Assembly: GCA_012838505.1 (NCBI GenBank)
Contig: DUPD01000048.1
Span: forward strand, 1 to 64,000
Length of the DNA: 64,000 nucleotides
Direction: 5' to 3'
DNA from: Bacilli bacterium
Lineage (GTDB): Bacteria > Bacillota > Bacilli > Bacillales > Amphibacillaceae
Made by a program: the position numbers and the translations under genes. Each line of letters begins with the position of its first letter. Position 1 is the stretch's first letter. A model generated the notes under the pieces. That model searched no databases and was not told the origin of the DNA. It worked only from the letters and a program-made list of their open reading frames with translations. This document shows, in pieces, positions 6,688-11,486 of the stretch.

Positions 6688-8052
6688 TCAACCAATCAGC
6701 ATTCGTGCTTCTGGGTAGCGGTAGAGGTCTTTTGTTGGTGGACTACTAATTAGGAATAGGAAAGAGAAAATCCCGATTCGTCCGATAAACATCATCACCA
6801 TGATCACAATTCGCCCAACAACAGACAACTCACCCGTAATTCCCAAGCTCAGCCCCGTTGTTCCAAAGGCTGAAAACACTTCAAATATGAGCTCAAGAAT
6901 CGAAAACGATTCCGTGATCGATAAAACAAAAATCGCGATCAGAGTAAGAGAAATTGCTGTGGTCAACACAACAAATGAACGAATTGTATCCCGATGACTG
7001 ATTTCTCTTTGAAATACTTTAATTGATTGACGCCCCTTGGCATAATTGTAAACGGACAACAGCACTACCGCAAAAGTCGTCGTTCGAATCCCACCACCTA
7101 CACTACTTGGAGATGCCCCAATAAACATTAAAAAAGCAAGTACAATTAATGTCGGTGTTGAGAATTCAGCGATGTTGCTTGTGATTTGACCACCACTTCG
7201 AGTTGAAACAGAGTTAAATAAGCTCGATAGCAATGACTGATACCAGGTCTGATCAGCAAATGCAAGATTATGCTCAATGAGAAAAATAACAACCATTCCT
7301 AAAATGAGCAGTAAGAAATAAGTCGTCGTTGTTAGCTTCATAAATGTCGTAAACCGAAAACCCTTTTTACGATTTTTTCGATCAATCAGCCACTGTTGAA
7401 TTTCAATTAATACTGGGAAGCCAATTGCACCAAGAACCATTAAAATGATATGGACAAATTGAACAAAATAATCATCAGCAAATGGAACGAGTGAAGCACC
7501 ATTAATATGAAAGCCAGCATTTGTTGTTGCACTCACTGATGCAAAATAACCTTGGAGCCAAGCTTCCTGCCACGTATCAAAGTAATTTAGGTAATGGATA
7601 CTGAGCACGACCATGCCAACCAATTCAATCGCAAGAATCATTTGGAGAATTTTTTTCGTTAACCGAACAAGTCCAGAAAAAGTTGCTTGATTATGGTCAA
7701 TTGAGATCAGCTGGCGCTCACGGATACCGATTTTTTTGCCAAGCATAATGTAGATCGCTGTTCCCATTGTCATAATCCCAATTCCACCGAGTTGAAAAAT
7801 AAATGACAAGGCAAAATAGCCTGCGGTGTTAAAGACTTGATCAATCGGTATGACGGACAAGCCAGTCACACTAATCGCGCTAATTGCAGTAAATAAGCTG
7901 TCGAAGAGCGATAGCGTTTGTCCTTCTTGCCAAAATAATGGCATACTCAAGATTGATGTTGAAATTAAAATCGCCAAAAAATAAAATAAAACGATTAATT
8001 TAACGGGTGATAAATTTTGGTTTTTGATTAAGCGATTAATGAAACTCATCAA
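6688..8052 (-). CDS. Ktr/Trk-type potassium transporter membrane subunit
   Basis: 454 aa; TrkH/KtrB P-loop-like motifs SAISVTGLSV, SATTNAGFH, VSTRSGGQ, SAFGTTGLSLG. Confidence 0.92.
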   Translation of the reverse strand: MMSFINRLIKNQNLSPVKLIVLFYFLAILISTSILSMPLFWQEGQTLSLFDSLFTAISAISVTGLSVIPIDQVFNTAGYFALSFIFQLGGIGIMTMGTAIYIMLGKKIGIRERQLISIDHNQATFSGLVRLTKKILQMILAIELVGMVVLSIHYLNYFDTWQEAWLQGYFASVSATTNAGFHINGASLVPFADDYFVQFVHIILMVLGAIGFPVLIEIQQWLIDRKNRKKGFRFTTFMKLTTTTYFLLLILGMVVIFLIEHNLAFADQTWYQSLLSSLFNSVSTRSGGQITSNIAEFSTPTLIVLAFLMFIGASPSSVGGGIRTTTFAVVLLSVYNYAKGRQSIKVFQREISHRDTIRSFVVLTTAISLTLIAIFVLSITESFSILELIFEVFSAFGTTGLSLGITGELSVVGRIVIMVMMFIGRIGIFSFLFLISSPPTKDLYRYPEARMLIG

Positions 8053-8154
8053 GTTTCCCCCTTACTATTTGGCTGAAAGTTGATTTATTACTAATTCTAT
8101 GATTGATTTACAAAATCAAACATGGCATAATTTTTAAAAGGAGTGATTCATATC

Positions 8155-8916
8155 ATGATCAAGCAACTAGAAGATTCATTTTTTAGAGAAGCACTTAACC
8201 ATACAAATGTTGGTCTTATTATAACAGATCCGAATCAACCTGATCACCCTATTATTTTTGTAAATAAAGGTTTTGTCAATTTAACTGGATATGAAGCAGA
8301 TGAGGTGACCGGAAAGAATAGTCGGATCCTTCAAGGTCATTCAACTGATCCTGAAGTAACTGAGGCGATTAAACAAGCGATAACTAATGAACAATCAATT
8401 ACCGTCGAAATTTTTAATTATAAAAAAAATGGTGAGCCTTTTTGGAATAAGCTGACGATCGATCCGATGTGGGTTGATGGTAAATTATACTTCGTTGGGG
8501 TACAAAAAGATATTACCGAATCCAAAAGAAAAGAAGCACTTTTACAAGAGGCTTTAACTGAGCTTGAACAACTTTCGACACCGATCGTTCCTATTAATAA
8601 AAATATTGTAGCCTTGCCTCTAATTGGTAAAGTAAACTATGAACGACTCGATCAATTAACAGGGAAAATATCAACTTATTTATCAAAAAATAAAAATGAT
8701 TATTTAATTTTAGATTTATCTGGTCTATATAATATTGAACCAACAGCTGTTGATTCATTTTTAAAGCTCCGTGATCTCACGCAGCTGATTGGCACACTTC
8801 TTGTCGTTACAGGAGTACGACCTGACCTTGCCTTGAAAGCACGGGATTTCACTGATCAATTAAAGGATCTCCGTACATACTTAACAATTCAAGATGCGAT
8901 TAAAGCACTAACATAA
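8155..8916 (+). CDS. YtvA-like LOV (PAS)-STAS protein, Cys-less LOV
   Basis: ORF track starts at GTG 8143, but RBS AAAAGGAG (8135-8142) fits ATG 8155. LOV core GKNSRILQGHSTDPEV, NYKKNGEPFWNKLTIDPM, GVQKDIT; C-terminal STAS. Confidence 0.9.
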   Translation: MIKQLEDSFFREALNHTNVGLIITDPNQPDHPIIFVNKGFVNLTGYEADEVTGKNSRILQGHSTDPEVTEAIKQAITNEQSITVEIFNYKKNGEPFWNKLTIDPMWVDGKLYFVGVQKDITESKRKEALLQEALTELEQLSTPIVPINKNIVALPLIGKVNYERLDQLTGKISTYLSKNKNDYLILDLSGLYNIEPTAVDSFLKLRDLTQLIGTLLVVTGVRPDLALKARDFTDQLKDLRTYLTIQDAIKALT

Positions 8917-9191: not shown

Positions 9192-9468
9192 CTAATATTC
9201 AACAACCACCATACTCCAATACTCTAATGATGGCAGTTCAAAGATAATTTCACCATTTTCTTGAGTAAATGCTAATTCGATGGCTGATCCTTCTTCCTGA
9301 TCAGGTGACGCAAACCATACTTTTTCAGCCTTTTGATCTGAAGCAATCTTAATTTGAAGATCTTCTCTTAAATTAGGTGCTGTTTGTGTACCCATGTCGT
9401 CTTTCCAATCAAGCGAGATTGCATCAGTGAAATTAATAAGTCGAATTGCCGAATTAGAAAAACTTGAG
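9192..9468 (-). pseudogene. C-terminal remnant of GH66-like (dextranase/CITase) glycosidase
   Basis: Reads AIRLINFTDAISLDWKDDMGTQTAPNLREDLQIKIASDQKAEKVWFASPD...FELPSLEYWSMVVVEY upstream of the ORF-track start until an in-frame stop; no catalytic domain. Confidence 0.6.
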
Positions 9469-9747
9469 GATCAATTAAATAAACAATCTGAAGACGATGC
9501 CAATGAGAATAATCAGTATGAATCTAAAAATGAGAATGATGATAATCATGAAGGAACTAAGGATGATGAGAGTAAGACTCCTACAGAGGAGCAAAGTACG
9601 GATCCCGTAAATGAAGTAAAAGCTAATGATACAGCCACCGAATTACCAAGAACTGCAACATCAATTTATCGTTATCTATTACTCGGCATACTCATTCTAG
9701 TCGTTGAGGGTAGTTTAGCTCTATACAACCACAGACGAACAAACTGA
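9440..9747 (+). pseudogene. C-terminal remnant of LPxTA-anchored surface protein
   Basis: Acidic linker, LPRTAT, hydrophobic helix and YNHRRTN tail; no signal peptide or N-terminal domain. Confidence 0.6.

Positions 9748-9845: not shown

Positions 9846-11486
<1,641 letters not shown>

Follow-up and report, generated by a model that had tools for sequence, protein, structure and literature searches.

What is left of a blue-light receptor of the YtvA type when the cysteine that forms its photoadduct is missing? This question is raised by a gene in a 64,000-nucleotide stretch of DNA (the window; contig DUPD01000048.1 of the Amphibacillaceae assembly GCA_012838505.1), which encodes a LOV-STAS protein with serine at the adduct site. 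The gene and its features are arranged as follows.

6688 to 8052, minus strand: TrkH-type potassium transporter, divergent neighbour and orthology marker, its adjacency to the LOV-STAS gene conserved in the clade
8103 to 8131, plus strand: possible sigma-A promoter, TTGATT-17-CATAAT, TG preceding the second hexamer (consensus match only; such matches are no more numerous than the shuffled expectation)
8138 to 8144, plus strand: Shine-Dalgarno AAGGAGT, with ATG 8155 10 bases downstream (sequence)
8155 to 8916, plus strand: Cys-less LOV-STAS gene (YtvA orthologue), 253 amino acids (open reading frame, translation, NCBIfam YtvA_fam)
8191 to 8520, plus strand: LOV (PAS) domain, residues about 13-122 (PF13426, 4e-20; 2PR5 alignment; model fold against 2PR5)
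8311 to 8334, plus strand: LOV active-site motif GKNSRILQ, canonically GKNCRFLQ (sequence, translation)
8320 to 8322, plus strand: AGT, Ser56, replacing the adduct Cys (YtvA C62; Cys in 47 other aligned proteins)
8449 to 8451, plus strand: Lys99, replacing the near-invariant acidic E105 of YtvA (alignment)
8515 to 8571, plus strand: J-alpha helix linker from LOV to STAS (model helix 121-139)
8581 to 8898, plus strand: STAS domain, with Pro at the RsbRA T205 / YtvA E202 site (PF01740, 2e-9)

A YtvA orthologue without the adduct cysteine

The reading frame opens at ATG 8155 and ends with the stop codon at 8914-8916. ATG 8155 is the likely start, since the longer GTG start at 8143 falls within the Shine-Dalgarno GGAGTG. 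The encoded protein matches NCBIfam YtvA_fam over positions 1-243 of 243 (325 bits, cut-off 250) and full-length YtvA (2MWG) with an E value of 9e-76, and its LOV model aligns to 2PR5 with a TM score of 0.90 (by target length). The LOV/STAS layout, though not the geometry of the pocket, is confirmed by the AlphaFold model (11 sequences; mean pLDDT 75). The adduct-forming Cys of GxNCRFLQ is absent, and its codon, AGT, lies a single base away from TGT. Without the thiol, a light-driven 390-nm adduct is impossible. Re-reading the sequence returned the coordinates, the strand, the GKNSRILQ motif and the AGT codon just as the sequence-only reading had given them. Structures of LOV domains with a C-to-S exchange are known (6PH2, C69S).

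The orthologue of Amphibacillus xylanus bears out the claim of a natural YtvA orthologue lacking the photoactive cysteine, and supplies the comparison within the genus that had been proposed as a check. It occupies the same locus beside the same TrkH transporter on a single complete chromosome of 2,569,486 bp (genome G003), with the motif GKNGRLLQ and a Gly codon, GGT. We named G003 A. xylanus from its AhpC, identical over 187 residues to PDB 1WE0, which we take to be the A. xylanus protein. Since this orthologue carries Gly at the adduct site and 47 other proteins carry Cys, the Ser is not a lone read error or a product of chance. In our search, the source genome (2.33 Mb in 111 contigs, completeness 86%) yielded no other LOV protein; the one further match was to the STAS region of RsbR. 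G002, the third genome of the genus, is 96% complete and has neither a LOV-STAS match nor the neighbouring TrkH gene, and a single-protein scan of genome contigs returned no relatives.

Downstream of the LOV-STAS gene, the window encodes a 117-amino-acid open reading frame (9394-9747, plus strand), rich in D, E, N and K, which closes with LPRTA followed by a hydrophobic helix and a basic tail; it resembles the sortase-anchor terminus of a surface protein and is perhaps a remnant. Together with an alpha-glucosidase-like gene (9846-11468, minus strand), it separates the LOV-STAS gene from a conserved sugar-catabolism cluster. Neither of the two lies between the corresponding genes of A. xylanus (L032).

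Family tree, co-lost acidic residue and selective constraint

Among 163 genomes of the family, 43 encode a full-length LOV-STAS protein. In an alignment of 50 such proteins, 47 with Cys62 and three without, the window and A. xylanus proteins form one clade (support 100/100), nested among Cys-bearing proteins of other Amphibacillus species, Streptohalobacillus and Halolactibacillus. Because the pair is nested inside Cys-bearing relatives, its loss of Cys is derived. Adjacency to TrkH is kept across the LOV-STAS orthologues of this clade, including the Cys-bearing ones, and in Paraliobacillus. The third Cys-less protein (L181, G016:C156:28370-29150), with Ala in the motif GLNARFLQG and Phe at 105, is distant on the tree; its genome has no photolyase match. 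As this protein stands far off and monophyly of all three is rejected (p-AU 6e-5, with long branches), Cys was lost at least twice in the family.

A pattern search of 400 genomes of the order recovered the Cys-bearing motif at more than 130 places in 116 genomes. A loose pattern gave 58 non-Cys matches, in a search that overlooks residues with T-initial codons. Of these, 42 were read (30 loci and 12 further places), and only two proved LOV-like: the window protein and a Pro-bearing PAS-GGDEF protein. The latter (L186, G202:C1:93500-98000) has the layout PAS(LOV-like)-PAS-GGDEF and the motif GQNPRFLQG, with Pro replacing the adduct Cys, a residue also found there in haloarchaeal BAT, and Ile aligned to the Q123 position. 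In another genus of the family, a LOV-STAS fragment (L183, G146:C1:822545-823078) contains one TAG and four TAA codons and is likely a photoreceptor pseudogene.

The flavin pocket has remained largely unchanged. At 12 pocket positions near-invariant in a first alignment of 33 Cys-bearing proteins, residue 62 is the only one altered in both Amphibacillus proteins, the A. xylanus pocket having the additional change F119Y. The sequence-only reading had noted that the flavin contacts appear kept. This stands for T30, N61, R63, Q66, N94, N104 and Q123, all present in the window protein, but three sites depart from the canonical sequence: Ile replaces F64 (Leu in A. xylanus), Lys stands in for the FMN-phosphate residue Arg79, and FWNEL has Lys instead of E105.

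The last of these sites sets the Cys-less proteins apart. The 47 Cys-bearing proteins share 50 near-invariant positions, of which just two, 62 and 105, are altered in all three Cys-less ones; residue 105 is acidic in 47 of 47 and replaced in three of three. E105/N124 has been proposed as an inter-subunit contact stabilising the light-state dimer of YtvA/YF1, corresponding to E96-K117 in PpSB1-LOV (PMC4589677). At 105/124, Cys-bearing relatives mostly carry E/K, the two Amphibacillus proteins K/K and the G016 protein F/N. The co-loss of E105 rests on two events, with a column-overlap probability of about 0.42, or 0.003 when weighted by branch length. In the STAS domain, both Amphibacillus proteins have Pro at the T205-equivalent site, where 27 of the 47 Cys-bearing ones have Thr, and the T171-equivalent site is Tyr in the window protein and Gln in A. 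xylanus, so that both proteins lack a phosphorylatable Thr at either site. B. subtilis YtvA likewise has no Thr there (E168, E202).

Between the window and A. xylanus proteins, dN is 0.15 and dN/dS 0.078 (LOV 0.09, STAS 0.085), a rough ratio with dS near saturation; for the nearby guaA, the same comparison gives a dN of 0.14 and a dN/dS of 0.086. Because the pocket is kept, dN/dS is about 0.08 as in guaA, and a complete rsbRSTUVW-sigB-rsbX operon is present, the window protein is constrained and does not look like one in decay. Had Cys been lost twice within the genus, separately and recently, some of this constraint would be a legacy of the Cys-bearing state; E105K and R79K, common to both proteins, speak for one early change. 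The genus stem shows accelerated evolution (0.43-0.49), which was considered as a sign of a functional shift and dropped: RsbR and RsbT have the long stem too, with stem-to-tip ratios similar to that of the LOV-STAS protein, so no relaxation particular to LOV-STAS is seen.

Possible functions of the cysteine-less protein

We consider it probable that the window protein is a light-blind, flavin-binding stressosome subunit descended from YtvA, a reading in which flavin binding, incorporation into the stressosome and the lack of a light response are all inferred. In this Amphibacillus lineage, an ancestor would have lost the adduct Cys along with the acidic residue proposed to stabilise the light-state dimer, while purifying selection has maintained the LOV fold, the STAS domain and the flavin pocket. 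Most likely the protein retains its FMN or FAD and belongs to the RsbR-RsbS stressosome; there, as an RsbR-type subunit, it would modulate the release of RsbT, and sigma-B, with no thioadduct chemistry involved. Its mode may be constitutive, with the flavin as a structural ligand, or it may respond to a non-light input. An RsbR-type role is plausible because contig 26 of the source genome carries rsbR, rsbS, rsbT, rsbU, rsbV, rsbW, sigB and rsbX in that order, and the matching genes are also grouped in A. xylanus.

Blindness does not follow from the loss of Cys alone: YF1 with C62A in its YtvA LOV domain still responds to light, signalling via the neutral semiquinone (PMC4682037). The sequence-only reading had invoked published signalling through the flavin radical. 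Two further losses point to light sensing having been abandoned and not re-engineered: that of E105, in all three Cys-less proteins, and that of photolyase, missing throughout the genus. No photolyase (PF03441) was found in the three genomes of the genus or in G004, which itself lacks LOV-STAS, and six of six Cys-bearing neighbours tested have one. Across the 163 family genomes, photolyase occurs in 17 of 40 with a Cys-bearing LOV-STAS protein, in 6 of 120 without LOV-STAS and in none of the three Cys-less ones; these genomes are related, p values are overstated, and the Cys state of G130 and G131 was taken from the motif search. The co-occurrence of LOV-STAS and photolyase lies far above expectation, phylogeny uncorrected. 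Since 23 of the 40 Cys-bearing genomes also lack photolyase, its correlation with Cys loss is local.

A more specific proposal, which we put forward tentatively and rate as unlikely, is that a blue-light receptor became a flavin-redox (oxygen or reduced-flavin) stressosome sensor in bacteria that lack a respiratory chain, losing Cys and the light-state contact and keeping the flavin. At falling oxygen or rising free reduced flavin, cellular donors would reduce the bound flavin, and N5 protonation would then act along the old LOV path to alter stressosome output. The proposal is attractive because N5 protonation is the common trigger, LOV midpoints are reported (about -250 to -300 mV; PMC11151830), and the oxygen metabolism of A. 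xylanus runs via free flavins (PMC5986008). N5 protonation suffices for signalling, and a natural Cys-less LOV protein, BAT, answers chemical reduction (Yee et al. 2015, PMC4682037); the pocket, including Q123, is kept. A. xylanus has no respiratory chain, about 8 uM free FAD and flavin reductases (PMC5986008), its flavin genes react when oxygen is suddenly lost (PMC13398963), and an O2-sensing stressosome has been reported from a Gram-negative bacterium (PMC4976288). However, with E105 lost the old dimer signal path may differ, and we found no precedent in the literature for redox sensing by a LOV-STAS protein. Cytochrome bd, the absence of which served to mark a non-respiring way of life, is also missing from Cys-bearing Amphibacillus relatives, and its absence does not track Cys loss. 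Cytochrome bd loss as the driver of Cys loss was itself rejected, the oxidase being missing in most Cys-bearing neighbours too.

That the protein is still a blue-light sensor, in which photoreduction to the neutral semiquinone replaces the adduct, seems to us improbable. YF1 C62A and Cys-less Vivid signal in this manner (PMC4682037), and Q123, N94 and N104 are kept; but Lys at 105 facing Lys 124 should break the proposed light-state contact, the three genomes of the genus have no photolyase, and A. xylanus was described from compost and biogas plants, which are mostly dark. Of the earlier suggestion of a stressosome sensor with alternative photochemistry, the stressosome part is strengthened by the complete stressosome/sigma-B system in the genome, and the photochemical part is weakened by the missing photolyase and by the loss of E105 alongside Cys. 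Least probable of all is a decaying photoreceptor whose role is gone and which is heading for loss: the third genome of the genus has no LOV-STAS match, a fragment with stops occurs in G146 and several usually invariant sites are altered, but the frame is intact in two species 21% apart with low dN/dS, nearly all pocket residues and the synteny are conserved, and stem and tip lengths match those of the stressosome partners.

Relation to known LOV systems

The LOV-STAS layout is common to the window protein and the blue-light stressosome receptors YtvA of Bacillus subtilis and RsbL (Lmo0799) of Listeria. As in the YtvA system, a sigma-B operon is present, and within its clade the window protein is the positional orthologue. 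In contrast to YtvA and RsbL, the Amphibacillus proteins lack the adduct Cys (Ser or Gly), carry Ile or Leu for F64 and Lys for both R79 and E105, and have Pro at the T205-equivalent site. NCBIfam NF052652 (the YtvA_fam equivalog, cut-off 250) gives 325 bits to each of two Cys-less proteins, the window protein and L003, and labels them blue-light photoreceptors, which is probably an over-annotation.

Natural Cys-less LOV* domains, such as haloarchaeal BAT with Pro, have the adduct Cys replaced and other LOV residues kept (Yee et al. 2015), as observed here. The window protein keeps eight of the nine conserved residues named for LOV*, F64 being the miss (the class rule is at least 9 of 10, with the tenth unnamed). 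It differs from LOV* in that its output is a STAS domain and its loss is derived, within a family of photoreceptors in which sister genera carry Cys. About 70 natural Cys-less LOV domains were known by 2015 (Yee et al. 2015, PMC4682037), possibly already including the A. xylanus or window protein; the main text of that paper mentions neither STAS nor Amphibacillus. Among the papers listed by our literature search, none joins Amphibacillus to YtvA or LOV. As far as we can tell, the derived loss within the YtvA family is new, as are its recurrence, its pairing with the loss of E105 and its local link to missing photolyase.

The flavin redox PAS sensors NifL and Aer, in which a PAS fold reads the redox state of a flavin, offer a possible working analogy. 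Membership in that group was rejected (NifL model 67 bits, cut-off 242), the best family being YtvA_fam. Relative to the engineered YF1 C62A and YtvA C62 mutants, the window protein is a natural counterpart changed at the same residue, whereas the natural proteins are additionally changed at E105 and at the T205-equivalent site.

For annotation, these proteins carry a warning: automatic YtvA_fam naming would call Cys-less members blue-light photoreceptors. For the organism, our reading of the absence of photolyase from the genus and from the Cys-less genomes is that the Amphibacillus lineage stopped using light cues. The Amphibacillus pair provides a naturally maintained version of the laboratory YtvA C62 mutants, accompanied by Cys-bearing sister species and a second independent loss. 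It thus makes two ideas testable, namely adduct-free, flavin-dependent LOV function and the conversion of a LOV receptor into a redox sensor; the latter change, if true, would retrace, in nature and in reverse, the route by which LOV receptors are proposed to have arisen.
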